Assembly: GCA_949287305.1 (NCBI GenBank)
Contig: CASEFX010000026.1
Coordinates: 1-64,000, forward strand
DNA: 64,000 nucleotides
Origin: an uncultured Sutterella sp.
GTDB taxonomy: Bacteria > Pseudomonadota > Gammaproteobacteria > Burkholderiales > Burkholderiaceae_F
Direction: 5' to 3'
Part shown: in pieces, positions 1-14,078 of the stretch
Position numbering within the stretch: position 1 is the stretch's first letter
Layout of the letters: every line of letters begins with the position of its first letter
Translations under genes and position numbers: made by a program
Notes under the pieces: generated by a model
The model's input: only the letters and a program-made list of their open reading frames with translations
What the model was told of the DNA's origin: nothing
The model's database searches: none

Positions 1-306
1 CGACTTCACCCATGTGCGGGCTTCTTCTCCAATCGTGATTGGACGTCCGCTCCGTTTTAGATCGTCAAGCGCCATCATCGGGCCGATTTGAAGCGCCTTG
101 CGCAGCATGCGCGCGACTGCGCTGACAGAGAGTCCGATTTCAGAAGCAATTTCCTTCTGTGATTTGCCTGCGGCCGCTCCAAGGAAGGCCTTTGCTCTTT
201 GTACTCGTCTAAGCTCTTCAGACCGAGAATTGGCAATTGCTTTCAATGTCGCAGTCTGCTCTGCGTTCAGTTCGAGACGGTTAACAACGGGGCGACCACG
301 AGGCAT
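1..306 (-). CDS. IS630-type transposase, N-terminal part (cut by window edge)
   Basis: The reverse strand reads from an ATG at 306 down to the window edge, giving about 102 residues with no stop. The protein begins MPRGRPVVNRLELNAEQT and continues with an arginine-rich helix, a helix-turn-helix around KSQKEIASEIGLSVSAVARM, and the segment LKRSGRPITIGEEA. This order (Leu/Arg-rich helix, HTH, then 'GRP' linker) is typical of the DNA-binding half of IS630-family transposases. The DDE catalytic half lies outside the window. A GGAG ribosome site precedes the start. Whether the element is intact cannot be judged here. The opposite-strand reading frame over the same bases is a shadow. Confidence 0.7.
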   Translation of the reverse strand, partial: MPRGRPVVNRLELNAEQTATLKAIANSRSEELRRVQRAKAFLGAAAGKSQKEIASEIGLSVSAVARMLRKALQIGPMMALDDLKRSGRPITIGEEARTWVKS

Positions 307-332
307 GAGAGGGCTCCTAATGAAACCCTCTC

Positions 333-341
333 ATTATAGCA
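333..341 (-). promoter_or_regulatory. Extended -10 promoter of the transposase gene
   Basis: On the reverse strand TGCTATAAT matches the extended -10 consensus (TGnTATAAT) exactly and sits about 27 bases before the transposase ATG. No good -35 hexamer is visible, as is common for extended -10 promoters. Confidence 0.5.
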
Positions 342-446
342 CATTTGCTTTATTTAATGGCGTTATATCGCGAACGTTATACTAGATCACCGTGACTTCC
401 GCTCGGGAGTATATCTTCACGTCTTTTCGCAGCTCTTTTACGCAAG

Positions 447-480
447 AAAGGCTATCAACCTGAATAGATTGATAGCCTTT
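447..480. terminator. Perfect 12-bp stem-loop between transposase and sensor kinase genes
   Basis: AAAGGCTATCAA (447-458) pairs perfectly with TTGATAGCCTTT (469-480) around a 10-base loop. It lies between the 5' end of the transposase and the 3' end of the sensor kinase gene, both on the reverse strand, so it most likely ends transcription of the kinase gene. The U-tract is short, so termination is inferred. Confidence 0.45.
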
Positions 481-569
481 TCGTAAAGAAAAAAAAATCC
501 TGTGTACGCGATTTTTTCCCGTCCTTTTTCCCTTCAAAGAAAAGGATTGTTTTGATTGTGGTAAGTAAT

Positions 570-3014
570 TTACTTCTTTTTGCACGATCCTGCCGACATT
601 TCGTCGTTCCGGGCTTCTTCACGGGAAGATTTTTCTTCGCCGGCGGCTTCACCCTCGGGTTCGGCCGTGTTGTCCTTCGGATCTTCGAGCCCCTCCCCCG
701 TTTCGCCCCTACGAAGGTCGTAAGGGGAAACCAGAGTCAAGCCTTGAACGCCCGTCTTCGCGGAAAGGAAGTTTTTGCGCACGTCCTCCTTGCGTCCGAT
801 GTCGCCCGACTCGTAGAAGTGGAGCGCCTCGGCCAAGCCCAAGGACTGCACCGTGACGGGAATTCCGCCGCGCTTCTCGCGGTCGACGGTCGTCATGCGC
901 TCGATCACGCTCACGGCCGCTTCGGACGTCGCGGGGCCCGAAACGCCGGGATCGGTCTTTTCGGCTTCTGCGCTCTTCACCATGGCCTCGACCTCGCGCC
1001 GGCGGTCGAGCACCTCGATCGTTTCTTCGCGGGTCGCATCGGGTTCGGTCTCGCCCGTCTTAGGAAGCACGAAGTCGAAGGTGACGCCCCTCTTTCCGTT
1101 CTTTTTCACGGTCACGCGTCCGGCGTGGCGCTCGGCGATGTTGGCGACGATCGATAGGCCGAGCCCCATGCCGCCCTCGCCCTTGCTCGTGCGAAGGGGT
1201 TTGAAGAAGTTCGAGAGCGCCTCGTCGCTCACTTCGGGACCGTTGTCGGCGACGGAGAGGATCCAGTTCCCCTCCTTCGAAACGAGCGAGACGCGGATCA
1301 TCGGATCGGGCACGCCCGAAATCGCGTCGGCGGCGTTTTTCAGAAGATTGAGGAGCGCGAGTTCGATTTCCCACTCGTCGACTTCGGCCATCGAGTTGCG
1401 GGGCACCGCGATCTGCAGGCTCGCCGTCGTGGTGCGCGAACGCCGGAAGGTCTGAATCGCCCGGTCGATCACGACCGAAAGGTCCGCGACCTTGCGGGGC
1501 GGGTAGTCGTGCTTGGCGTACCCTCTCACGCGCTCGACGATCCGGCTCGCGCGCTCGGCCTGCGCGACGATTTCGCCCAAGGCCTCGAGAAACTTTTCCT
1601 GGTCCATGGCGCCGCGCTTCGTGCGGCGCATGAGACCGTTGGCGTAATTCATGATGGCGCCCAAGGGCTGCTTCAATTCATGGGCGATGATGGTGGACAT
1701 CTGCCCGACAAGACCCGTGCGCTCAAGGTTCGCGATGTGCGCGCGCGACTGGCTCGCCTCGGCCTCGATCAGTTCGCGGGCTTCAAGCGAAGCGCGAAGT
1801 TCCCGCGTCTTTCTGCGCACGAGCACAGAAAGGCTCACCGCATAGGAGAGAACGAGGAAGGTGACGAGCGACAAAAAGGCGATCAGGTCGCCGTGCTCGC
1901 GAAGAATCCGGCGAAAGCTCCAGTCGGCGAGGTCCCGATAGGGACCGATCTTCAAAAGGTAATAGAGGTCGTAGACGCTTCGGGCTTCCGCGGGGTCCGT
2001 CCAGACGTCGTGCAGGCCCGGGGCCCTCACGGCCCGAAAGGCCGAGAGCACCGTGTCGCGAAAGACGATCGAAGTTCTTTCGGTCGCGCCGAGCGCCCAA
2101 CCCGGATAGAGAGGCGTCGAGACGCTGCAGGCGAAGTTCGTCGTAGGCAAAGGATGCACGATCTCGATGTCGCGCCCGATGTTGAGCTTGCCCGCCCGCT
2201 CGAGCTGTTCGAGCGAACACGCGGGCAACACCCCGACGGTGCTCTCACCCTTCAGCACGCGATCGAGCACCTTCTCGTAAGCGCCGAGTCCCAAAAACTC
2301 GGTGCGAAGCTGCAGCTCTTCGCGCGTCACCCCGGCCTTCGCGAAGACCCCGGCGGCGGCGAGCCACCCGCCCAAGGATTCGTCAGAAGTCGCGGCGAAA
2401 CTCTCATAGCGAAGCGCGAGAAGATCGGCGTATTCGTCGTGCCGGTCCTTCTTTAAGTAAGAGGGCTGTCGGACGGGCGCGCCCGAGCGCTTCTTCGTGA
2501 AGATCACGCTCCCCTGCGTTTCATCGGCGCTTCCCGCCTCGCCCGAGCGCATCGACGCGATCACGTCGACGTTCATCATGGGCCCTTCGGCCGTATAGAA
2601 CGTGGGCTCGGCGATGATGAAGTCGGCAAGGCCGTCCTGCACGGCGCGCCCGAGGTCGGCCGAGTCGAGGTAGTAGACGGAGAAGGTTTGGTAGCCGAAG
2701 AGTTTTCCGAGAAACTCCTTCGTCACCCGCAGAAAGCGGCTCGAAGGGTCGCTTGCGACTTCGCTTTGCACGACGATGCGGAAGGGCCGCACGGCGCGTT
2801 CCGCAAAGAAGGGCCGAAGCGCCTCCACGTCCTCGTCCCGGACGAGGTTGTTCGTCGTCCTGAGGAATTCCGGGGCCACGTGGTCCTGCAGCGCCCGCAC
2901 GTCCCCCGAAGGCGTTCCCGTGGTCGTCCCCATGCCGACGAAGGACGAGGGCGACGCACAGACGCCGCCCGCGAGGGCGGCCGCAAGAGAGAGCGCAAGA
3001 AGGGCGTGCTTCAT
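570..3014 (-). CDS. Orphan hybrid sensor: PhnD-like binding protein fused to histidine kinase
   Basis: The protein has 814 residues. A signal peptide (about 1-20, ending GGVCAS) leads into a periplasmic PhnD/TtrS-type binding domain (about 70-350), one membrane segment (about 377-397), a coiled linker and a histidine kinase core: H-box IAHELKQPLGAI with His445, N-box LLNLLKNAADA near 555-564, G1 DNGP 591-594, and G2 GGMGLGLSI 614-622. This architecture matches TtrS, the tetrathionate sensor, but no ttrR regulator or ttrABC operon is next to it, so its ligand is unknown. The kinase core ends near residue 650 and an unusual acidic tail of about 160 residues follows. The RBS before the ATG is weak. 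Confidence 0.85.
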   Translation of the reverse strand: MKHALLALSLAAALAGGVCASPSSFVGMGTTTGTPSGDVRALQDHVAPEFLRTTNNLVRDEDVEALRPFFAERAVRPFRIVVQSEVASDPSSRFLRVTKEFLGKLFGYQTFSVYYLDSADLGRAVQDGLADFIIAEPTFYTAEGPMMNVDVIASMRSGEAGSADETQGSVIFTKKRSGAPVRQPSYLKKDRHDEYADLLALRYESFAATSDESLGGWLAAAGVFAKAGVTREELQLRTEFLGLGAYEKVLDRVLKGESTVGVLPACSLEQLERAGKLNIGRDIEIVHPLPTTNFACSVSTPLYPGWALGATERTSIVFRDTVLSAFRAVRAPGLHDVWTDPAEARSVYDLYYLLKIGPYRDLADWSFRRILREHGDLIAFLSLVTFLVLSYAVSLSVLVRRKTRELRASLEARELIEAEASQSRAHIANLERTGLVGQMSTIIAHELKQPLGAIMNYANGLMRRTKRGAMDQEKFLEALGEIVAQAERASRIVERVRGYAKHDYPPRKVADLSVVIDRAIQTFRRSRTTTASLQIAVPRNSMAEVDEWEIELALLNLLKNAADAISGVPDPMIRVSLVSKEGNWILSVADNGPEVSDEALSNFFKPLRTSKGEGGMGLGLSIVANIAERHAGRVTVKKNGKRGVTFDFVLPKTGETEPDATREETIEVLDRRREVEAMVKSAEAEKTDPGVSGPATSEAAVSVIERMTTVDREKRGGIPVTVQSLGLAEALHFYESGDIGRKEDVRKNFLSAKTGVQGLTLVSPYDLRRGETGEGLEDPKDNTAEPEGEAAGEEKSSREEARNDEMSAGSCKKK

Positions 3015-3115
3015 GACGAAAAAGAAGGCGTGAGGACGACGATAACAAAACCGCCATTATAGGAAGGCGTCCGCGCTCTATACTTCTCGGACGATCACTT
3101 TTTCTCGCCGCCTCC

Positions 3116-4594
3116 ATGGATCTTCCCGCCCGAACGCTCTCTCCCGACGACGCCCTCTCGAAACTCCTCCCCGCCTCCGTGGCCGTGCCGCTTGCGGGGC
3201 TCGAGATTCTCACCGTCGAAGACCTCTACGACATGATCGCCTCGCTCGGCGCGGGGTGGTTTCGCGAGGTCCAGGGGCTTGACGCCCAGGGCGCGGCCGC
3301 GATCGTCTCGTGGCTCGCCGACTTCGGGCGCGGCGTGGGCGAAGTGACGGAGCGCTTCTACCCGGCGGGCTTTGCGCCCGAAACCAAGCATGCAAACGAA
3401 CCCGACTACGGGATCGTGCCGCTCGAGCGCCTCACGCTCACTTCCGTCGAATTGGGCGAAGGAGCGATCAACCGCGCGCCCGCCGTCGGGTGTTCGCTCG
3501 AAGCCCGGGACGACCTCGAGGCGCTCAAGCAGTGGCTCGTCGCCCGCGCTCCCAACTCCAACACCCGCGGGAACTACCGCAAGGAGGCCGAGCGCTATCT
3601 TCTCTGGTGCGTGCGCGAGCGCGGTACTGCCCTCTCGGCCGTCCGCGCGGGAGACGCGGCGCTCTACCTCCGGTGGCTCGAGTCCCTCGGCCGCACGGAC
3701 GAAGGCGAGTGGGCGCAGACCTGGAAGATCCCGCAGAGCGCCTGGATCGCCCCCAAGAATACGCCCCGCAAGAGTCCGCGCTGGCGCCCCTTCAACGGGC
3801 CGCTTTCCGTCATGAGCCGCCGAAACGCCGTGACGGTCGTGCGGCAGCTCTACAACTTTCTTAAAAAGACGGGCTACCTCATCTTCAATCCCTTCGATCA
3901 GGTCTCGGGCAAGGTTCCGCTTCTGCGCGGAGAAGGCGCCCCGCAGGCCTTCGGCGACCGGTCGCTCACGGAGGCGCAGTGGGAGGACATCGTGCGCCAC
4001 ATCGACACGCTCCCCGAAGGCTACCCGAGAGAGCGCATGCGCGCGATTCTGATGCTCGGCAAAACGCTGGGGCTTCGGTCCTCCGAAATCATCGACGCCC
4101 GGGTCTCCTGGATCGTGACGCGCCGCATGGGCTTTCGCGAGCGTGCGGCAATCGAGGTCGTGGGGAAAGGTTCCAAGGTGCGCCGTTTGCCGCTCACCTC
4201 CGAACAACTCGGCATTTTGGACGGCTGCCTCAAGGCCCGCGGTCTCGGGGGCCTGCAGGCGGTGCCGCCCGAAACGCCCCTTCTCACGAATCTCGGGCGC
4301 GGCGGCAGGCCTTTCGAAGGCCTCACGCGGGGCGGCCTCTACCGCATCGTGGCGGGCTTTTTCGAGTCGGTCGCATTGGACCTCGAAACGTCGAGACCGC
4401 TCGATGCGGCGCGTCTTCGCGCGGCGTCCACCCACTGGCTTCGGCACAGCTTCGCCGTCGAAGCTCTCACGAAGATGAACGTCAACATCGTGCAGGCCGC
4501 CATGGGCCACGCCTCCGTCTCGACGACCGGGCGCTACCTCGCCCCGGAAGAAGAGGAAATGAGCGACGCGCTCGCCCGCATGAGCCGCTTCTGA
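3116..4594 (+). CDS. Tyrosine recombinase / phage-type integrase with DUF3701-like N-terminus
   Basis: This is a 492-residue site-specific recombinase. The C-terminal catalytic domain has all the expected residues: Arg321 (GLRSSEI), Lys354 (GKGSK), His440 and Arg443 (HWLRHSF), His465 (GHAS) and the nucleophile Tyr474 (TGRYL). A SAM-like core-binding region spans about 130-260. The first ~120 residues resemble the DUF3701 extension seen on Burkholderiales integrases. It is longer than XerC/XerD (about 300 residues), so it is probably not the housekeeping dimer-resolution enzyme. No tRNA gene, attachment-site repeat or phage gene is visible nearby. It diverges from the sensor kinase gene across about 100 bp. 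The RBS is poor, so the exact start is uncertain. Confidence 0.85.
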   Translation: MDLPARTLSPDDALSKLLPASVAVPLAGLEILTVEDLYDMIASLGAGWFREVQGLDAQGAAAIVSWLADFGRGVGEVTERFYPAGFAPETKHANEPDYGIVPLERLTLTSVELGEGAINRAPAVGCSLEARDDLEALKQWLVARAPNSNTRGNYRKEAERYLLWCVRERGTALSAVRAGDAALYLRWLESLGRTDEGEWAQTWKIPQSAWIAPKNTPRKSPRWRPFNGPLSVMSRRNAVTVVRQLYNFLKKTGYLIFNPFDQVSGKVPLLRGEGAPQAFGDRSLTEAQWEDIVRHIDTLPEGYPRERMRAILMLGKTLGLRSSEIIDARVSWIVTRRMGFRERAAIEVVGKGSKVRRLPLTSEQLGILDGCLKARGLGGLQAVPPETPLLTNLGRGGRPFEGLTRGGLYRIVAGFFESVALDLETSRPLDAARLRAASTHWLRHSFAVEALTKMNVNIVQAAMGHASVSTTGRYLAPEEEEMSDALARMSRF

Positions 4595-4709
4595 CGCCTT
4601 TTCCCGCAAGTCGTTTGTCACTTTTCGCCCTTCGGGTTTTCTTGGGATCGACGAACCGCCCCGACCGCGCGCATCATGCGAATGTTCCTTTGCACAGAGG
4701 AGTTTTTGC

Positions 4710-6383
4710 ATGAGAACACCGATTTCGCTCGCCATTGCGCTCCTGCCCGCAATGGCATTCGCCTTCGTTCCGACGGTCGACCAAAAAACGGTCGACGCGG
4801 CGGCCGCCATTCACGCCGATCGCGCGATGAAGGCGCTTCTCGCCGACCTCGAGACGCCCGAAGCCAAGGACGCGCGCTTTGCCACGCACATGGAAATCGT
4901 GCGCATCATTTCGCCTTCGCGCTACGAACTTCGCCGTCAGGCCGAAATCACGCGCCGCCTCACTGCCGACTGGGGCTTTGACGCCAAGGACATCATGTCG
5001 CGCACCGACGGCCACCTTCCGGGCGCGGGCGTGCAGACGGTCGACGGCCTGCCCGTCTACAACGTCTGCGTGCGCATTCCGGGAACCTACTCCCAGACGC
5101 CGGGCGCCAAGAACTACAAGGGACAGTTCCCGAAGGTGCTGATCGAAGGCCACATCGACACGGTGAATCCGCCCGATCTCCCGCCCGAATCCAAGCCCTA
5201 CGCGCCGATCAAGCTCGCGCCCGCCTCGGATCCCGTCGTGAAGACCCGCGACGAACTCGCCGCGATCAAGGACGAACTCCACTTTAACGACAAGGGCTAC
5301 CTCATCAAGGACGAGACCTTCCAAAAAGCCTACAAGCGCTTCGCGAGTCTGGATGACGCCCAGAAAAACGGCGGCACGCGCTTCTATGTTCCGGGCTATT
5401 CCGACGCCATGGTGAACACCGCCGCGGTGCTCCAAGCCGCGCAGATGATGAAAAAGCACCGCATCCGACCCGTCTACGACGTCTGGGTCTGCGGCACCGC
5501 GGGCGAAGAAGGGAAAGGCAACATCGCCGGCATGAAGCAGCTCTACGGCTACAGCCAGGAAACCGGCAAGGCCAACAACGCCCTCAACATCGTCGCGAAC
5601 GTTTCGGTCGACAGCACGAGCCCCGGATCGGCCACGATCAACTATGTGGGGAGCTACCGCTTCGAAATCAAATACCGCGAATCGCCCGACGGCAAGCCCT
5701 CGGCCCTGCAGGCCATGGCCCGCGCGATCGAAGAGATCGCCAAGGTAAAGACCGCCTACGACAAGAACCCGAAGGTCGACCGCACGACCTACACGGTGGG
5801 GGTCGCCCGCTGCACGCCGGCCGGCGCGAACGGACGCTCGCAGGAATGCTCTTTGTCGGTTGACATGCGAAGCCTCGACAAGAAGCTTCTCACCGAAACC
5901 CGCGCCATGATCGAACCTCAGTTCAAGGCGGCGCTTGACGCCGAAAACGCAGCCCACGGCCTCAAGACGGGCGACAAGGGCGCCCTCACGATGGACGTCG
6001 TCTGGTTCGGCGACCGTCCCGCCGCGAAGCGTGAAAACCTCAACGACCCGATCATCCAGGCCCACTGGACCGCGACGAAGCTTCTCGGCATCGACGAGCG
6101 CAAGGAACTCTCGACCGACGCCCAGTCCTTGAACGACAACGTCCCGGCCGCGATCGGCATTCCGACGATCAACGTGAACGTCGGCACGAACGCCGCCTCC
6201 CGCGGCGGCCACACCTGGTACGAATGGGGGATTCCCGGCGACGCCGATGCGGAAAGCCTGCGCGTCTATCGTCTGATCCTTACGGGTCTCCTTGCCGCGG
6301 GCTTCAACACGTCCGACGGCAAGACCATCGAGCCGCTCGTCGGTCCCGAAGGACCGCGCACAACGGAAGAAATGTACAAGTGA
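4710..6383 (+). CDS. Exported M20-family metallopeptidase
   Basis: A strong RBS (GAGGAG) precedes the ATG of a 557-residue protein with a clear signal peptide (MRTPISLAIALLPAMAFA). M20 signatures are present: metal-binding GHIDTVNPP (about residue 151), the region YSDAMVNTAAVL where the bridging Asp lies, the catalytic pair CGTAGEEGKGN, its own dimerisation domain, and a C-terminal GGHTWYEWG. It is longer than typical M20 enzymes because of an insertion after the first metal ligand (about 155-225). It should act in the periplasm as an amino- or carboxypeptidase or amidase; substrate unknown. The next gene starts 11 bases downstream and encodes a separate lid domain, so the two are probably cotranscribed. 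Confidence 0.85.
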   Translation: MRTPISLAIALLPAMAFAFVPTVDQKTVDAAAAIHADRAMKALLADLETPEAKDARFATHMEIVRIISPSRYELRRQAEITRRLTADWGFDAKDIMSRTDGHLPGAGVQTVDGLPVYNVCVRIPGTYSQTPGAKNYKGQFPKVLIEGHIDTVNPPDLPPESKPYAPIKLAPASDPVVKTRDELAAIKDELHFNDKGYLIKDETFQKAYKRFASLDDAQKNGGTRFYVPGYSDAMVNTAAVLQAAQMMKKHRIRPVYDVWVCGTAGEEGKGNIAGMKQLYGYSQETGKANNALNIVANVSVDSTSPGSATINYVGSYRFEIKYRESPDGKPSALQAMARAIEEIAKVKTAYDKNPKVDRTTYTVGVARCTPAGANGRSQECSLSVDMRSLDKKLLTETRAMIEPQFKAALDAENAAHGLKTGDKGALTMDVVWFGDRPAAKRENLNDPIIQAHWTATKLLGIDERKELSTDAQSLNDNVPAAIGIPTINVNVGTNAASRGGHTWYEWGIPGDADAESLRVYRLILTGLLAAGFNTSDGKTIEPLVGPEGPRTTEEMYK

Positions 6384-6394
6384 GGGAAGACATC

Positions 6395-6796
6395 ATGAGA
6401 ACACGCAATCTTCTTCTGGCCTTTGCCCTCGCCTCCGTCTTTGCGGGCGGCGCCGCGGCGCAAACCTACGTCGTCAACATCGCGGCCCCAGGCGGCCACT
6501 CGTTCGGCTCCTACGGGAACACCAACGCCGTGCACGCGGCGGCGAACGCGATCCGTGAAATCGCGAGGACCGTTCCCGAAGCGGTGGTGAGCGACTTCAA
6601 CGGCGGCGCCACGGTGAACGCCATCGCGACCGACGCGACCTTCCGCGTTACGGTGCCCGACGGAAAGGATCTGCGCGCGAAGATCAAGAAAGCCGTCGAC
6701 ACGGGCGTGAAGCGTGAAAACGACTTCCGCGGCGTGAAGGCGGGCGATCTTGCCGCGGGCGGAACCCCCGCGCACGTTCGCTACACGATCCGGTAA
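6395..6796 (+). CDS. Free-standing exported M20 dimerisation ('lid') domain protein
   Basis: The ATG at 6395 gives 133 residues with a signal peptide (MRTRNLLLAFALASVFAGGAAA). The mature part reads like the isolated dimerisation domain of an M20 peptidase: APGGHSFGSYGNTNAVHAAA, then FNGGATVNAIATDATFRV. Compare GPGGHSWLDYGRVPSAVHAI and KGGTTVNTIAAHCEVDVDM in the complete M20 enzyme at 28938-30155. No metal-binding half is present. It follows the exported peptidase gene by 11 bases. In whole M20 enzymes the lid His of the GGHS motif reaches into the partner subunit's active site, so a role as partner, modulator or decoy of the upstream enzyme is plausible but unproven. Confidence 0.75.
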   Translation: MRTRNLLLAFALASVFAGGAAAQTYVVNIAAPGGHSFGSYGNTNAVHAAANAIREIARTVPEAVVSDFNGGATVNAIATDATFRVTVPDGKDLRAKIKKAVDTGVKRENDFRGVKAGDLAAGGTPAHVRYTIR

Positions 6797-6821
6797 TCGA
6801 AGACCGCCGCTGACGGCTCCC

Positions 6822-6858
6822 GACCTCCGGTCCTTCCTCGGGCCGGAGGTCTTCCTTT
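6822..6858 (+). terminator. Rho-independent terminator after the M20 pair
   Basis: GACCTCCGG (6822-6830) pairs with CCGGAGGTC (6843-6851), followed by a TTCCTTTTC tract. It closes the peptidase/lid-domain transcription unit. Nothing else is evident between here and the MATE gene at 7065. Confidence 0.7.
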
Positions 6859-7064
6859 TCTGATGACGGCAGGCAACGCACGCCTCTGACCGTCAACAGT
6901 CTTCGTTTCCTTTCATCGGGCTTCACCGCAAAAACTTTTTCCCTCCTGCCCGATTCTCCCGTCCCATTTGCGTTTGCGCCCGCATCCCGATAGACTTTCC
7001 TGCGTTTGAATCGATTTTTTTTTTCGCCGCCTCGAAAGCGTCCGGCGGCGCGACGGGAGACTTC

Positions 7065-8432
7065 ATGCGTTCGGCCCAACAAGCCCTCGACCGCGACTTT
7101 TCACTTTTCGGACAACTGCGCTTCGTGTCGCCCCGCATCGGCATGTCGCTCTTCATCATGTCCTACCTGGTCGCGGACGGCGTTCTGATCGCGCACTATC
7201 TCGGCACGACGGCGCTCGCGGCGCTCAACCTCACCTTCCCCATCGCGGGGGTGATGTCGGCGGGCGGGATCATGCTGAGCAGCGGCGGAAGCTCCGTCGT
7301 CTCGCGCCGTCTCGGCGCGGACCGTTTGGAAGACGCTCATTCCGCCTTCACGACGATTCTCTGGGCGGAAGCGATCCTCGGAGCGCTTCTGGGCTTTTTC
7401 GGGTGGCTCTTCATGGATCCGCTCTTCGCCTTTCTCGGGATCGACGACGAGCTCGTTCCGCTCGCGGCCGCGTATCAGGCGGTGGTGTTCCTCGGGCAGC
7501 CCCTGCTCCTTCTGAGTTTCGCCGTACAAACCTTCTTTACGACGGCGGGCTACCCGAAGTTCGGACTCTACTCCTCGATCGCCTCGGGCGTGACGAACGT
7601 CGTCCTCGACATTCTCTTCATGGGGCCGCTCGAAATGGGCATGGCGGGCGCCGCCTGGGCTACCGTCATCTCCTGGTTCGTGACGGGACTCACGGGCGTC
7701 GCCTTCTTCGGGCGCAAGAACGCGCCGCTGCAGTTCCGGCGCGGCGTCTTTGAGTGGCGCGCCATCAAGAACGCCGTGACGAGCGGCTTTGCGGAAATGG
7801 TCTCTAGCCTCTCGCACGCCGTGACGCTCTTCCTTTTCAACCGCGCCTTCAAGGGGATGCTCGGGATCGACGGCGTGGCCGCGCTCACGATCGCGTCTTA
7901 TTCGACTTACGTCTTCAATTCGGTCTTCTACGGCTTTTCGGAAGCGACCGCCGCGATCATCGGCTTCAAATACGGCCGCAAGGACTGGGCGGGGCTCAAG
8001 AAAGTCTTCGGGAATGCGGTCAAGACGGCTTTGGCCTTCTCGGGGCTGAGCTTCCTTCTTTCGATTCTCTTTTACGAGCCCGTGCTGGCGGTCTTCACGG
8101 CCCCGGGCACGAACGTCTACGCGATCGTGGCGGGAAGCTTCACGCTCTATGCGACGACCCTCCTTTTCTCAGGCTCGAACATGTTCGCCGCATACTTCTT
8201 CACGGCGTTTGGCGACGGGCGTCGCGCGGCGATTCTGTCGTTTTGCCGCACCTTCCTCTTCATGATCATCGCGATCGAGACGCTTCCGCGGCTTCTCGGC
8301 GAACCCGGGCTCTGGCTCGCGCTCCCCGCGTCCGAATGCCTCTCCTTTGCGACGGCGCTCGTATTCATCCTCATGAACGCCCGCCGCTACGGCTACGACG
8401 GACGCCCCGCATTGCTCATCCGCGAAGGCTGA
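7065..8432 (+). CDS. MATE-family multidrug/Na+ antiporter
   Basis: The 455-residue protein is very hydrophobic, with about twelve predicted membrane segments in two related halves, as in MATE (NorM/MepA/DinF) transporters. Typical elements include the first-helix region around LVADGVLIAHYLGTTALAAL, the motif GGIMLSSGGSSVVSRRLGA, and the second-half counterpart near GFSEATAAIIGFKYGRKD. Such proteins export cationic drugs or metabolites using Na+ or H+ gradients at the inner membrane. The start at 7065 has a GGGAGA ribosome site. The gene stands alone between two terminators, with no adjacent regulator. Substrate cannot be deduced from sequence. Confidence 0.85.
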   Translation: MRSAQQALDRDFSLFGQLRFVSPRIGMSLFIMSYLVADGVLIAHYLGTTALAALNLTFPIAGVMSAGGIMLSSGGSSVVSRRLGADRLEDAHSAFTTILWAEAILGALLGFFGWLFMDPLFAFLGIDDELVPLAAAYQAVVFLGQPLLLLSFAVQTFFTTAGYPKFGLYSSIASGVTNVVLDILFMGPLEMGMAGAAWATVISWFVTGLTGVAFFGRKNAPLQFRRGVFEWRAIKNAVTSGFAEMVSSLSHAVTLFLFNRAFKGMLGIDGVAALTIASYSTYVFNSVFYGFSEATAAIIGFKYGRKDWAGLKKVFGNAVKTALAFSGLSFLLSILFYEPVLAVFTAPGTNVYAIVAGSFTLYATTLLFSGSNMFAAYFFTAFGDGRRAAILSFCRTFLFMIIAIETLPRLLGEPGLWLALPASECLSFATALVFILMNARRYGYDGRPALLIREG

Positions 8433-8454
8433 CCATTTTCCCGACCTCCAACGC

Positions 8455-8496
8455 AAAGACGCCGCCCGAACAAGCCGGTGCGGCGTCTTTTCTCTT
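8455..8496. terminator. Bidirectional terminator between MATE and ygiW-like genes
   Basis: AAAGACGCCGC (8455-8465) pairs perfectly with GCGGCGTCTTT (8480-8490) and is flanked by a T-rich run on the plus strand and the reciprocal A-rich side. It sits between two convergent genes and can serve both. Confidence 0.75.
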
Positions 8497-8525
8497 TCCT
8501 CAACAGAAAGGAACGGAATGTATCG

Positions 8526-8882
8526 TTACTGGACGATGCGCAGGATTTCCACGTCGATCTTCGGCGCGCCGATCAGATCGCGGTCGATTTCACCCTGGAG
8601 TTCCACCTTCGTCTTTTCATTCACCTGAACGTTCATGAAAAGGTCGTCGTCGATGTCGGCCGTGATCGAACCCGTTTCATCCTGGAAGATGTAGCGTTCG
8701 TCGCCGACCTTCTTCATGATGAAGCCCGTGACGCGGAAGCCCTGATCGTCGATGCCGTCGTCAAGGATGAGCTTGACCTTTTCGAGCGTCGGGCCGGCGG
8801 AGGGACCCGTGTAGGCGGCCTGCGCGGTACCGGCGGCAAGTCCTGCGGCGAGCGCAAGGGCAATCAAAGCTTTGGCTTTCAT
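8526..8882 (-). CDS. YgiW/YdeI-family periplasmic OB-fold (BOF) protein
   Basis: The start at 8882 is chosen because AAGGAG lies 8 bases upstream and a signal peptide begins there (MKAKALIALALAAGLAAGTAQA). The 118-residue protein carries the BOF core: VTGFIMKKVGDERYIFQDET, then GSITADIDDDLF, then TKVELQGEIDRD and a final KIDVEILRIV strand. This matches YgiW/YdeI/VisP stress-tolerance proteins of Gram-negative bacteria, small periplasmic OB folds linked to peroxide, cationic peptide or metal stress. It is monocistronic with a good promoter. The exact stress it answers to here is unknown. Confidence 0.85.
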   Translation of the reverse strand: MKAKALIALALAAGLAAGTAQAAYTGPSAGPTLEKVKLILDDGIDDQGFRVTGFIMKKVGDERYIFQDETGSITADIDDDLFMNVQVNEKTKVELQGEIDRDLIGAPKIDVEILRIVQ

Positions 8883-8915
8883 GATGGTTCTCCTTGTTGA
8901 TTTCGTCATGCCTTC

Positions 8916-8944
8916 AATCTAACAGACGAAATCCCGTCGTCCAA
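8916..8944 (-). promoter_or_regulatory. Sigma-70-type promoter of the ygiW-like gene
   Basis: On the reverse strand TTGGAC (8944-8939) and TAGATT (8921-8916) are separated by exactly 17 bases, about 34 bases before the start codon at 8882. Confidence 0.6.
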
Positions 8945-9141
8945 GCGCCAAATGAAAGGAGAATCGTTTCAGATGTAACGAAGGGTTTTTGTCGCGCCCT
9001 CCTCCTAACACAACTTTACTTTCCTTGAAAATCAAGGGAAAAGTTGCCAAAACAAAACTTCTATTTCGATTTATGTCAGCAACCGGGTCACAACGGAAGG
9101 AGCCCCGTACCCGCAACAGATTCCCCGACGATTTCCGCTCT

Positions 9142-10167
9142 TCAGGAAAGCGCCGCGACGAGGTGGAGACACAGCGCCTCGGTGACGTTCTTGACGTTCA
9201 ACGGATGCTCCGAATGGCGGTTTCGCTCGAGAAGATCGTCGTAGAGGGCGAGAAGTTTTTCCTCGGAGGCCCCCGACGCCTGCCGCGCAAGCGTGTTGGC
9301 TTCAAGCGGAAAGAAGAGCGGCTCGAGCCCCGACTTCACGCGTACGAGGTCCGTCGACCAGCGCGTGAAGTAGTAAAGCACCGCCGGCACCGTGAGGCCC
9401 TTCGTAACGCCGCGCACGATCTCGTCGGGCGTAAGCGAAGCGCCCCGACGCAGAAGGTTCAAAATCGCCTTTTCGTCGTCTTCAGGAAGCGTGAGCCCCG
9501 AGACGTCCTCAAGCGCCAGAAGGGGCGAGCCGCCCGCGAGCGCCAAACGGCGCTCCGCTTCGTCGACGCCCTTCTCCCTGAGCCAGGCGAGCGCCTCGTC
9601 CTTCGAAGGGAGCGTCAGACGAAAGAGCCGCGAGCGGCTTCGAATCGTCGGGAGCACGGCGTCGAGTTCCTCCGTGACGAGAAGGAAGGTGCACTCGGAC
9701 GGGGGTTCCTCGATCGACTTCAGCAGGGCCGCAGCCGCTTCGGCGCGCACCATCTCGGCGGGGTAAATCACGACGATGCGGCGTCCGCCCTGATTGGCCG
9801 TGAGTTCGAGAAAGTCCCCGAGCGCCTTCACCTGCGGAAGGAGAATTTCGCGCGAGAGGGTCTTTCTCGTCGAGGACGAGGTCTCGGGCTGAGCAAACGG
9901 AAGATCCTTTGCGACGGCGAAGTATTCGGGCACGATCACGCGAAGGTCGGGGTGCGTCCCCGCGCGCGTCAGTTCGCACCCGCGGCAGTGTCCGCAGGGT
10001 TCGCCTTCGGACCCGGGATAGTGACAAAGAAGGCTCTTCGCAAATTCATAGGCGAGCTCGAACCCGCCCGCCCCTCGCGGACCGTAGAGGAGCATCGCGT
10101 TCGGAAGCGTCGCGCGCTGTCGCGAGAGCGCCGCAGCGGCGGGCTTGAGCCAGGGATAGGGAATCAT
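9142..10167 (-). CDS. holB: DNA polymerase III delta' subunit
   Basis: The 341-residue clamp-loader subunit begins MIPYPWLKP; its ATG overlaps the tmk stop by 4 bases (ATGA). A degenerate P-loop (YGPRGAGGFELA, lacking the Lys/Ser of an active ATPase) is normal for delta'. The zinc module has four cysteines (48, 58, 61, 64; CGHCRGC). The sensor region TIRSRSRLF follows. It works in the DNA polymerase III clamp-loader complex to load the beta clamp. Its place as last gene of mltG-tmk-holB is conserved in many proteobacteria. A longer upstream start is possible but would run into tmk. Confidence 0.9.
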   Translation of the reverse strand: MIPYPWLKPAAAALSRQRATLPNAMLLYGPRGAGGFELAYEFAKSLLCHYPGSEGEPCGHCRGCELTRAGTHPDLRVIVPEYFAVAKDLPFAQPETSSSTRKTLSREILLPQVKALGDFLELTANQGGRRIVVIYPAEMVRAEAAAALLKSIEEPPSECTFLLVTEELDAVLPTIRSRSRLFRLTLPSKDEALAWLREKGVDEAERRLALAGGSPLLALEDVSGLTLPEDDEKAILNLLRRGASLTPDEIVRGVTKGLTVPAVLYYFTRWSTDLVRVKSGLEPLFFPLEANTLARQASGASEEKLLALYDDLLERNRHSEHPLNVKNVTEALCLHLVAALS

Positions 10168-10802
10168 GCCTCTTCTCCCTTGCGGCGCACGAGCGATTCG
10201 ACCCACTCGGCGATTTCACGCTCGATTTCGTCGGCCGAACTCTCGGCGTTCACGATCAAAAAGCGTTCGGGATTGCGCACCGCACGATCCAGATAGGCTT
10301 CGCGCACGCGCGAGAAGAATTCCGTGCTCTCGCGCTCGAAGCGGTCGTCGCCGCCCGAACGGGCCGCACGGCGTGCGGCCGCCACTTCGGGCGAGAGATC
10401 GAAAAGCACCGTCCCGTCGGGACGGAAGGCCCCGAGCGTCCAGTTTTCGAGCGACTCCACTTCCGCCCCGGAGAACCCTTTGCCGCCCACCTGATAGGCG
10501 TAGGTGGCGTCGGTGAAGCGGTCCGAGAGCACCCAGGTGCCCGACGCGAGGGCCGGACGGATCTTCGTTTCGGCGTGCTCGGCACGGCCCGCGAAAAAGA
10601 GGAGCGTCTCCGTTCTCGGCGTCATGTCGTCTGCGAGCAGGAGGCCGCGGATCTTTTCGCCCACGGGCGTGCCGCCCGGTTCCCGCGTCACGAGCACGCT
10701 TTCGCCGTGCTCTTCCAAACGTCGGGCGAGCCGTTCGATCTGCGTCGACTTGCCGGCGCCGTCGATGCCTTCAAAGGTGATGAAGAGGGGACTGAGTGTC
10801 AC
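10164..10802 (-). CDS. tmk: Thymidylate kinase
   Basis: The 212-residue enzyme phosphorylates dTMP to dTDP in dTTP synthesis. The P-loop GIDGAGKST is at about 12-20, followed by the TREPGGTPVGEKIR motif that binds dTMP, the DRF motif (LSDRFTDATYAYQ) and a lid region rich in Arg. It starts with GTG, which overlaps the mltG stop by 4 bases, and its own TGA overlaps the holB ATG, so the three genes are translationally coupled. Length is normal for the family. Confidence 0.93.
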   Translation of the reverse strand: MTLSPLFITFEGIDGAGKSTQIERLARRLEEHGESVLVTREPGGTPVGEKIRGLLLADDMTPRTETLLFFAGRAEHAETKIRPALASGTWVLSDRFTDATYAYQVGGKGFSGAEVESLENWTLGAFRPDGTVLFDLSPEVAAARRAARSGGDDRFERESTEFFSRVREAYLDRAVRNPERFLIVNAESSADEIEREIAEWVESLVRRKGEEA

Positions 10803-12298
10803 TTGGAGTCCTTCGTTTTGCTTCGTTGGTTCTTATTCAGGATGAAGCGCCGCACCGCGCGGTTGTGTTCGGCGAGCGTGCGCGAGAATTCACTCGTTCC
10901 GTCTCCGCGCGCGACGAAGTAGAGGTACTTCGTGTCGGCGGGGTGCACGGCCGCCTCGATCGAGGCCTTCGAGGGCATCGCGATCGGCGTGGGCGGGAGC
11001 TTGTTCATGGTGTAGGTATTGTAGGGAGTCGGACGGCGCAGATCGGCGCGCGTGAGATTCCCGTTGAAGTCGGGCCCGATCCCGTAAATCACCGTCGGAT
11101 CGGTCTGCAGGGGCATCCCGCGCTTCAGACGATTGTGGAAGACCGAACTCACCTTCGTGCGGTCGGCGTCGACCGACGTTTCCTTTTCGATGATCGAGGC
11201 GAGAATGAGGGCTTCGTACGGGGTCTTGAGGACCGAGTCCGCCGGACGCGTCGCCCAGGCCGCCTCGAGCGTCTCCTTTTGGCGGCGATAGGCCTGACGC
11301 CAGAGCGGCAGATCGTCGGAGCCCGAGCTGTAGCGGTAGGTGTCGGGCGCGAACCACCCTTCGGGACTCATCCCTTCGGGGAGCCCCACGGCCTTCGCGA
11401 AGGCTTCGGCGTCAAGCGTCTCGGTCTTTCCTTCGAGCTCTTCGGCCGCCCCGAAGACTTTGCGCACTTCCCAAATGGGCGCGCCGTCGGGAATGCGAAC
11501 GGAACGGTCGAGAAGCGGCAGCCCCGTGAGAATGTCGATCACGCCCGCGTGGGTCGTTCCTTCGGGAAAGCGAAAGACGCCCGAATGCATGGGAGCGGTC
11601 GTTTTGGGGTGAAGCCGAAAGGCAAAGCGCATGAGACGCTCGTCGAGCTCAAAGCCCGCTTCCTTCAGGCGCAGGACGGCGCTTCGCATCGTGTCGCCAG
11701 GACGCACGCGGATGTCGACGGCGCGCTGCGAGATGCCGTCCTTTACGACCTCCACGCCCGCGCCTTCGCGAATCGCAACGGGCTCTTCGAAAATCTTCTT
11801 TTTCCCCTGGGTGTAGAGCACCCCGGCCGCCGCGACCGCAAGGAGTACCAGAACGAGAAGAGCGAGCAGGATCTTCCCGACTAGGCTCTTCTTGCGCACG
11901 GGGACGGGCTCGGCTTCCGTCCGGGTCTCCGCAGGAGCGGGCTCGGCGGAGTCCGGCAGTGCGGCTTCCGATCCTTTCGGATCTTCCGCCTCACGCTCAG
12001 CCGCCGACTTTTCGGCAGCCTCGACGGCGGGCGTCTCCTTCAAAGCGGCATCCTTTTCGGAAGGCTCTTCCCGCGTGGAAACCTCCTGCGGCTCCCCCGA
12101 AGGCTCGTTCGTCACGAACGACGACTCCCCCGTCTTGTCGTCCGCAGGGGCGGCGTCGACCGCGGGCGTCCCATCCGTTCCCTCTTCGGGACGGACTTCG
12201 GACTCGGCCGTTCGGGTTTCGGGCGCGGGATCCTCGGGGGTACGGGATTCCGCGTCCGCGAGTTCGTCGTTTCGGTCGGATGCAATCTTTTCGGACAC
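10799..12298 (-). CDS. mltG: Endolytic murein transglycosylase MltG with long acidic cytoplasmic extension
   Basis: Taking the GTG at 12298 gives 499 residues. Residues 1-135 are a low-complexity stretch rich in Glu, Ala, Pro and Thr, followed by one membrane segment (about 140-163, KILLALLVLVLLAVAAAGVL) and a periplasmic YceG domain. The catalytic Glu lies in ASIIEKETSV (about 371), and the family signature VFHNRLKRGMPLQTDPTVIY follows. MltG cleaves nascent glycan strands and so limits their length. Typical MltG is about 340 residues; the extra N-terminal part is cytoplasmic and of unknown use. The RBS is weak, and an in-frame ATG at 12415 would add 39 unlikely residues. Confidence 0.85.
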   Translation of the reverse strand: MSEKIASDRNDELADAESRTPEDPAPETRTAESEVRPEEGTDGTPAVDAAPADDKTGESSFVTNEPSGEPQEVSTREEPSEKDAALKETPAVEAAEKSAAEREAEDPKGSEAALPDSAEPAPAETRTEAEPVPVRKKSLVGKILLALLVLVLLAVAAAGVLYTQGKKKIFEEPVAIREGAGVEVVKDGISQRAVDIRVRPGDTMRSAVLRLKEAGFELDERLMRFAFRLHPKTTAPMHSGVFRFPEGTTHAGVIDILTGLPLLDRSVRIPDGAPIWEVRKVFGAAEELEGKTETLDAEAFAKAVGLPEGMSPEGWFAPDTYRYSSGSDDLPLWRQAYRRQKETLEAAWATRPADSVLKTPYEALILASIIEKETSVDADRTKVSSVFHNRLKRGMPLQTDPTVIYGIGPDFNGNLTRADLRRPTPYNTYTMNKLPPTPIAMPSKASIEAAVHPADTKYLYFVARGDGTSEFSRTLAEHNRAVRRFILNKNQRSKTKDSK

Positions 12299-12471
12299 GG
12301 CTGAGCCTTCGGTATTGAGAAAACCACGACAGTATACGGGACGGAAAGTTGCGCAGCGGTGACGAACGTCCGCCGTAAACGAAAAAGACGCTTCTTTTCC
12401 ATCACGTCGTGGCATCTTTGCACGTTATTTTCTTTGCCCGAGAATAGTTCCTTTTCGCAAGATTGCCTTTT

Positions 12472-12996
12472 TCAGAATCCTGAGCTAACATGCCCCACTA
12501 AGGATCGCAGGATGTTCCGATGAAAGGCGTTAGAGGTACAGTTCGCCGCGTGCCCGCGGAAGTGCGATCCTTTTTTCTTTGAGGAGTTTTTGTACATCGA
12601 CGCCAACTTCCCCGCGGGTGCCGTATAGACCGTAACGATGTTCCAACGTTCTTTCGTCGGCCCCTTCCAAACGTGCTCTTCGCTGAGCGTGCGCTCAACG
12701 ATCGCGACCACGAGAGCACCGTCGCCCCGCGACGGTCAAAAAGCCCTCCTCTCCCCCACCAGGAACCCTCTTTCGGCGATGGTTGGCATGTCTATCACTT
12801 TCTCAAAGTCCGACTCCGTCGGGTCTGGACGCCTTTTCCGGTCATGCCGGGCTGTATCGCGGCTGAGAACCACTTTCACCTCTGAAACCGCGCCCTTTAG
12901 AGAAGAGTATTTCTCCGTTACCGCCGTCGTTCGCGTAAACCGTTCTTTATCCCAGTTCGACCGATGTCTGACACAAGGTGACTCAATGTAACTCAC
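12472..12996 (-). pseudogene. Possible degraded reading frame in the mltG-ygfZ gap
   Basis: The 820-base gap between mltG and ygfZ holds no intact gene. On the reverse strand one frame stays open from about 12996 to 12472 except for a single TGA at 12736-12738. Either side reads as charged, protein-like sequence (EVKVVLSRDTARHDRKRRPD before the stop, IVERTLSEEHVWKGPTKERW after it). The first part loosely recalls an IS1634/IS4-type transposase, but I cannot assign a family. It could equally be a chance open frame. Confidence 0.25.
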
Positions 12997-13118
12997 GCTT
13001 TAAAGGAAAAAGCCCGTAATCGCATGAGAGAGAAGCAATTCTGCCTCTTTCTCACTCTACCTGACGCATATGATTTTATGGTATTGTTGCAGAACTTTTT
13101 CTTGAAAGGATCTTTCCC

Positions 13119-14078
13119 ATGACGCAAGCCAATCACCCCGCCTTCGTGCGCCTTTCGAGTCTCGGCGTCACCACCGTGACGGGCAAGGACGCTCTCGCCT
13201 TCCTCCACGGCCAGTTCACGAACCGCCTGCAGCCGCTCGGGCAACGCGCGCCGCTCGCGGGCTACTGCTCTCCGAAGGGCCGCCTCCTCGCCACGATGCG
13301 CGTCTGGGGCGAAGGGGATGCGATCTCGCTTCTCCTCCCCAAGTCCGCCGAACCCGCGTTTCTGAAGCGCATCCGCATGTACGTGCTGCGCTCCGACGTG
13401 CACTTTGCCGAAGACGCCGAGCGCACGCTACTCGCGGGCTTCGGTGAAGAAGCCGAAGCACTCCTCAAGGACCGTCTTGCCGCCGCCGGCGCGGAACTTC
13501 CCGCCGTGAACGAAGCCGCCGTGGCGCCCGAGATCACGGTCGTGCGCGTGCCCGACACCCCGGCCCTTCCCGGCGTCGCGGACGCGGGCGTTCGCTATCT
13601 CGCGCTCGTAAAGGACGCGGAAGCCTTTGCCCCCGCTGAGGACGACGCCTACTGGTGGGCCACCGAAGCCGCCGCGGGGATCGGTTCGGTCTTCGCGGAA
13701 ACGGCCGACCGTTTCGTTCCGCAGTCGATCAACTACGAACTCACCGACGGGGTCGTCTTCAACAAGGGCTGCTACCCCGGTCAGGAAGTAGTGTCGCGCA
13801 TTCAGCATCTGGGGACGCCTTCGCGCCGCATGGCCCTGGGGCTCGCGCAAACGCCGGTTCTCCCGGAAGCCGGTGCGGGCCTGTACGCCCTGAAGGGAGG
13901 AGCGCGGACGCCGTCGGGCGACGTCGTCTTCGCCGTACGGGGCGAAAACGCCGCGGCGGTCCTCGTTTCGCTTCCGACGGGCGACTTCGGGCACGAATTG
14001 TCGCTCGACGCGGAAGGCGGGATCCCCGTCAAGCTCGTGCCGCTTCCCTACGAAATCCGCAACGTGCTCGACAGCTGA
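13119..14078 (+). CDS. ygfZ: Folate-binding Fe-S cluster maintenance protein YgfZ
   Basis: The 319-residue protein has the diagnostic YgfZ motif KGCYPGQE (about residues 216-223) with its conserved Cys, in a GcvT-like folate-binding fold. Family members use tetrahydrofolate to help assemble or repair certain Fe-S enzymes, including MiaB. An AAAGGATCTTTCCC ribosome site precedes the ATG. The gene diverges from mltG-tmk-holB, an arrangement common in Burkholderiales, but here an 820-base gap separates them. A strong terminator follows. Confidence 0.9.
   Translation: MTQANHPAFVRLSSLGVTTVTGKDALAFLHGQFTNRLQPLGQRAPLAGYCSPKGRLLATMRVWGEGDAISLLLPKSAEPAFLKRIRMYVLRSDVHFAEDAERTLLAGFGEEAEALLKDRLAAAGAELPAVNEAAVAPEITVVRVPDTPALPGVADAGVRYLALVKDAEAFAPAEDDAYWWATEAAAGIGSVFAETADRFVPQSINYELTDGVVFNKGCYPGQEVVSRIQHLGTPSRRMALGLAQTPVLPEAGAGLYALKGGARTPSGDVVFAVRGENAAAVLVSLPTGDFGHELSLDAEGGIPVKLVPLPYEIRNVLDS

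Follow-up and report, generated by a model that had tools for sequence, protein, structure and literature searches.

Judged from their sequences, two adjacent genes of an uncultured Sutterella sp. are likely to encode one exported peptidase composed of two different chains. The genes lie in a window of 64,000 nucleotides, the whole stretch of DNA analysed here (contig CASEFX010000026.1). A 557-residue M20-type peptidase with intact zinc-site residues is directly followed by a 133-residue protein with the predicted fold of an M20 lid domain, and each of the two lids lacks active-site residues that the other retains. A preliminary description had proposed a two-component peptidase. The present analysis supports that idea and sharpens it by the reciprocal loss of residues, which was not part of the description.

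A stand-alone lid protein encoded behind an M20 peptidase

The small open reading frame begins with ATG and is separated from the stop codon of the peptidase gene by a spacer of 11 nt (6384-6394), exactly as had been described for its position behind a full M20 enzyme. Its product carries PGGHSFG at residues 32-38 and GGATVNAI at residues 70-77, the two hallmarks by which it had been recognized as a stand-alone M20 lid. In Pfam, residues 29-102 matched M20_dimer (PF07687) with an E value of 1.6e-4 and 22.0 bits (cut-off 21). There was no Pfam match to the catalytic domain Peptidase_M20, in agreement with the reported lack of a metal-binding half, and the sole other row was DUF1390 (E 0.22). 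The N-terminus has a hydrophobic core (residues 6-15) and an AxA site after residue 22 and is signal-peptide-like by this rule of thumb, as had been proposed.

An AF2 model of the small protein, built from a 21-row alignment (mean pLDDT 82, pTM 0.74), showed the strand and helix order of the M20 lid; residues 37-41, beside the GGHS motif, were modelled poorly. Foldseek returned 7ljh_A as the top match (E 3.5e-6), with further M20 enzymes in the next ranks, and VIA-align superimposed the model on 7ljh_A with Z 11.3 and an rmsd of 2.6 over 105 residues, M20 enzymes making up all of the best 40 rows. The predicted fold is hence that of the M20 lid, as the preliminary description expected. By profile cut-off and by fold the small protein belongs to PF07687, yet its lid is incomplete, as the triad of His, Asn and Arg is not present in full.

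The upstream protein matched Peptidase_M20 (E 9.4e-8), while its own lid reached 16 bits with PF07687 and remained under the cut-off. Its N-terminus is likewise signal-peptide-like by simple rules. The closest solved structure by sequence was 7ljh (E 1.4e-18), and 7ljh_A was also the best VIA-align match (Z 21.1, 389 residues, rmsd 7.6) of an AF2 model of middling quality (pLDDT 72, pTM 0.73). Metal-site residues were located by alignment with 7ljh and the residue list given in PMC6271292. H148, D150, D232, E266, E267, D301 and H501 are invariant in 20 of 20 sequences, and the peptidase has the dizinc site of two His, two Asp and one Glu together with the catalytic Glu. A pseudo-peptidase accompanied by a regulator is disfavoured because these zinc-site residues are invariant. 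All 20 peptidases contain a long stretch (about residues 159-219) that separates the GHxD motif from the bridging Asp, where 7ljh has few residues.

Directly upstream of the pair lies a gene for a tyrosine recombinase with DUF3701 (3116-4594, + strand), preceded by one for a sensor histidine kinase whose periplasmic binding domain is of the phosphonate type (570-3014, - strand). Behind the small gene, a terminator-like hairpin would close the two-gene unit (Table 1); the consensus scan that detected it found 6 sites against 3.5 expected in shuffled sequences. No Rfam match was obtained for positions 1-14000 of the window.

Table 1. Positions of the two genes and of their features in the window
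Feature	Position	Strand	Basis
Putative catalytic subunit: exported M20-type peptidase, 557 aa, own lid degenerate	4710..6383	+	Pfam, 7ljh match, invariant metal-site residues
Peptidase's own lid, about residues 304-425; GGHS and GGxxVNxI loop absent, Arg kept	5619..5984	+	Alignment, profile alignment to small protein
Codon of lid Arg387 (DMRS)	5868..5870	+	Invariant in 20/20
Putative stand-alone lid subunit, 133 aa, signal-peptide-like N-terminus	6395..6796	+	ORF, Pfam, alignment, AF2, Foldseek, VIA-align
Predicted signal peptide, residues 1-22	6395..6460	+	Hydrophobic core and AxA rule only
GGHS motif, His35	6491..6502	+	Invariant in 21/21
GGATVNAI loop, Asn75	6602..6625	+	Invariant in 21/21
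Terminator-like hairpin, 12 pairs followed by T-rich tail	6822..6851	+	Consensus scan

Distribution and gene order

Of 67 genomes of the family, 21 encode stand-alone small proteins, at 22 places distributed over six genera and with open frames of 127-253 aa; the remaining 46 genomes had none. With a threshold of E 1e-60, the peptidase was detected at 21 places in 20 of these genomes (five genera). At every one of the 21 places the small gene follows directly 3' on the same strand, and the peptidase gene always comes first. The 22 small genes comprise 20 complete pairs, one pair with a truncated peptidase and one orphan lid, and one genome has two whole pairs (L087, L090 in G004). The conservation that the preliminary description had made a point of decision was thus found in the form of 20 complete adjacent pairs. 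The intergenic gap is 9-28 nt at the 20 places measured, which do not include L081 because of a run of N.

The truncated peptidase occurs in Sutterella massiliensis An829 (L094 in G053), where only residues 418-557 are left beside an intact small gene. At L094:7583-10500, a different stretch of DNA replaces the first 417 residues of the peptidase and the last 140 remain. The orphan (L095:8581-8991 in G011) lies behind a gene that we read from its ORF as dinB-like, with no close peptidase, and the best match of that genome to the peptidase profile had an E value of 5.9e-31. This orphan is either a leftover or a lid serving another M20 enzyme.

Named relatives with the pair or its remnant are Turicimonas muris YL45 (L022), which is placed in the Sutterellaceae (Burkholderiales), S. 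massiliensis An829 and an uncultured Sutterella. In a rough mechanical comparison, the flanks of the pair were common within genus g2, where they include queA, tgt, secD and secF, and different between genera; in T. muris, the neighbouring genes include those of a lyase of the fumarase type and of an EamA transporter.

Beyond the family, 399 sampled genomes of the order (E 1e-15, up to 10 candidates scored per genome) yielded four stand-alone lids, none of them outside the family, and 398 sampled genomes of the phylum (E 1e-14, up to 10 candidates scored per genome) yielded only that of the window. The peptidase profile at E 1e-80 (up to three candidates scored per genome) found three of the 399 order genomes, all belonging to the family. 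Neither protein matched viral contigs. A plasmid search returned nine records with at most 36.5% identity and 64-76% of the query covered. No fused form of the pair was seen among the matches listed in these searches. The source genome (2.6 Mb, 39 contigs) contains 22 places with PF07687, of which 21 lie in reading frames 361-511 aa long, and this richness in M20 peptidases fits a peptide-based life.

Active-site residues are divided between the two lids

In homodimeric M20 enzymes, each active site is completed by the lid of the partner. The closed active site of DapE, a geometry that rests partly on docking models, is described as containing Arg258 of chain A together with His194 and Asn244/245 of chain B (PMC10815964, PMC5919655), and the two lids of CPG2 bring Arg288 from one chain together with His229 and Asn275 from its partner (PMC6271292). 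These accounts agree with the earlier statement that the lid His serves the active site of the partner.

We aligned the lids of 21 small proteins and 20 peptidases with those of 55 other full-length M20 proteins, 20 of which came from the same genome. The lid His is present in 21/21 small proteins, 0/20 peptidase lids and 55/55 other lids, and the lid Asn in 21/21, 2/20 and 50/55. The Arg of the D-x-R strand has the opposite distribution, with 1/21 small proteins, 20/20 peptidase lids and 55/55 other lids. The two peptidase lids scored as Asn belong to the peptidase of the window and to a relative 95% identical to it, and the residue lies within a rewritten loop. All 20 peptidase lids have a variable loop in place of GGHS and a variable hairpin in place of the GGxxVNxI loop; the placement of single residues inside these loops is uncertain, while both motifs themselves are missing in every case. 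Invariant C368 and C380 flank the variable hairpin and are a possible periplasmic disulfide clamp. The 55-lid background is biased, since the profiles used to collect it include the His. The lid of the peptidase itself fell below the PF07687 cut-off and is absent from the genome's lid list, and further lids without His would escape in the same way.

In the small protein, the ten positions of the active-site loops, which were picked from known motifs, are all invariant, as against 19 of the 101 remaining positions of the mature chain. The peptidase does not possess a complete lid of its own with His, Asn and Arg. Neither chain has a PepV-like lid uniting all three residues, which are instead divided over two chains.

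We take Arg387 of the peptidase to be the putative counterpart of DapE Arg258 and CPG2 Arg288, the match of residue numbers to these two enzymes being an assumption. The role given to it follows the descriptions of these two enzymes (PMC10815964, PMC6271292). In a heterodimer with one catalytic domain, the large chain would have to supply Arg and the small chain His and Asn, and precisely these are the residues that each chain has kept. The division is the one expected, at the level of residues, of a 1:1 heterodimer with a single active site.

Origin and selection

A tree of the lids placed the small proteins in one clade and the peptidase lids in another (SH-aLRT 100 for both), on long stems (1.65 and 1.94, respectively), and both clades were nested in one clade of GGHS-type M20 lids with a support of 96. 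The tree was inferred by a quick method from 116 columns, and many of its forks are open. It fits a duplication of a GGHS-type enzyme with subsequent reciprocal loss as a possible history. As each lid is a single clade, the pair has a single origin and its 20 instances are not 20 independent events. Small and large chain were related marginally by BLASTP (E 0.05) and more clearly by profile comparison (E 6e-6, probability 85%).

For eight pairs of loci, dN/dS was 0.03-0.08 for the small gene and 0.02-0.09 for the peptidase gene; in six of these pairs dS exceeded 1. In a ninth pair, window versus L094, the small gene had dN 0.27, dS 0.98 and dN/dS of about 0.28. The last value suggested relaxed evolution of the small gene in L094, but the identities of small protein and peptidase fragment fall on the line of intact pairs, and we do not uphold this reading. 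Across 171 locus pairs, the distances of the small proteins correlate with those of the peptidases (r 0.89), as shared ancestry by itself would likewise bring about. An artefactual or chance reading frame is ruled out by 22 homologues in 21 of 67 genomes, the invariant motifs and the dN/dS of 0.03-0.08.

Discussion

In the proposed enzyme, the large chain would contribute the dizinc catalytic domain, a lid that acts as docking surface and R387 as Arg donor in cis. The small chain would act as the partner lid and dock lid to lid, like the second subunit of homodimeric M20 enzymes. Upon closure, His35, for the oxyanion or transition state, and Asn75, for the substrate carboxylate, would enter the single active site. 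With just one active site, His and Asn would be dispensable in the large chain and Arg in the small chain, and these residues have been lost. The sequences and models show the conserved adjacency, the predicted lid fold of the small protein, the intact zinc-site residues and the divided lid residues; we infer that the lids dock on each other, that the chains combine 1:1, that catalysis proceeds in trans and that the enzyme is periplasmic. Among the roles first considered for a free lid, the reciprocal residues favour complementation of the enzyme over its inhibition or tuning.

The small protein could instead be a dedicated inhibitor or regulator that occupies the position of the partner lid and keeps the peptidase blocked or restrained until its release. 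Gene pairing and lid fold fit this, and separate export would permit regulation. We nevertheless consider it unlikely, because inhibition alone leaves unexplained why the peptidase is without His and Asn and why the small protein has exactly these and no Arg. That the peptidase is self-sufficient, either as a homodimer or as a monomer with a rewritten active site, while the small protein is a cotranscribed binder of peptides or other M20 enzymes, appears rather unlikely, too. PepD with the exchange H219A is reported to retain about 110% activity (PMC6271292); the lid His is dispensable in this M20 enzyme, and its absence does not imply that a peptidase is inactive. The orphan lid and the 21 other M20 lids of the source genome, as potential partners, point in the same direction. 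However, the order is fixed in 20 complete pairs, the orphan is the only one of 22 lids without any adjoining piece of the peptidase, and an M20 partner that already has a His would not require a donor.

The idea that the small gene is a relic in decay, left by an M20 duplication, would agree with the position of both lids in the same clade of GGHS-type lids, which fits an origin by duplication. This explanation is very improbable and was rejected as far as sequence allows: the frame is open and free of stops at 22 of 22 places, dN/dS is low, the active-site loops are invariant and the protein has a predicted signal peptide of its own. In addition, the 9-28 nt between the genes leave no room for a remnant of a catalytic domain. 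What counts against the two-chain enzyme is the orphan, the lid beside a truncated peptidase in L094, the behaviour of PepD and the single origin of the pair.

Both chains have their closest solved relative, by sequence and fold, in the PahZ2-type M20 hydrolase 7ljh, a poly(aspartic acid) hydrolase. It shares the catalytic residues and a GGHS-type lid with the pair but unites the catalytic domain and a complete lid with His, Asn and Arg in a single chain. The lid of the monomeric M20 dipeptidase PepV imitates a dimer of lids. PepV has one catalytic domain and a lid with Asn217, His269 and Arg350 (PMC6271292), all in one chain, whereas the second lid of the pair is a separate gene product. DapE, CPG2 and aminoacylase-1 would resemble the pair in supplying the His (and Asn) of the partner lid in trans and Arg in cis; unlike the pair, they consist of two identical chains with two active sites.

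Completion in trans by the partner lid is already established from M20 homodimers and laboratory mutants. Mutants E157A and H226A of MsAA, a mycobacterial M20 aminoacylase, restore 13% of the wild-type activity when combined, and a similar complementation of aminoacylase-1 by Lindner et al. is reported there as well (PMC13058870). DapE deprived of its lid is described as inactive (PMC4012986). The published M20 heterodimers that we encountered combine mutants made in the laboratory (as presented in PMC13058870), and a search of the open-access PMC literature yielded no description of a natural stand-alone or heterodimeric M20 lid. New here is probably a natural M20 pair in which the two active-site roles appear to be placed on separate genes.

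We lean towards regarding the pair as a natural obligate two-gene M20 peptidase, in which a homodimer would have become an asymmetric heterodimer by loss of one catalytic domain and then of those lid residues that no longer faced an active site. The free lid may be exchangeable and in this way control activity or specificity. By analogy, the periplasmic substrate might be a small peptide or an N-acyl amino acid, a guess based on the poly-Asp hydrolase as nearest solved relative and on the peptide-based life of Sutterella. S. massiliensis An829, the strain with the truncated peptidase in the assembly analysed (L023, L094), is reported to live on peptides in the chick caecum with aspartate in a central role (PMC11204068).

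If the two-chain enzyme is real, either half could be added, removed or mutated alone, and what the lid contributes to closure and catalysis could be tested directly. The pair would then show cleanly how, in gut bacteria with a peptide-based life, reciprocal loss makes an obligate heterodimer out of a symmetric homodimer.
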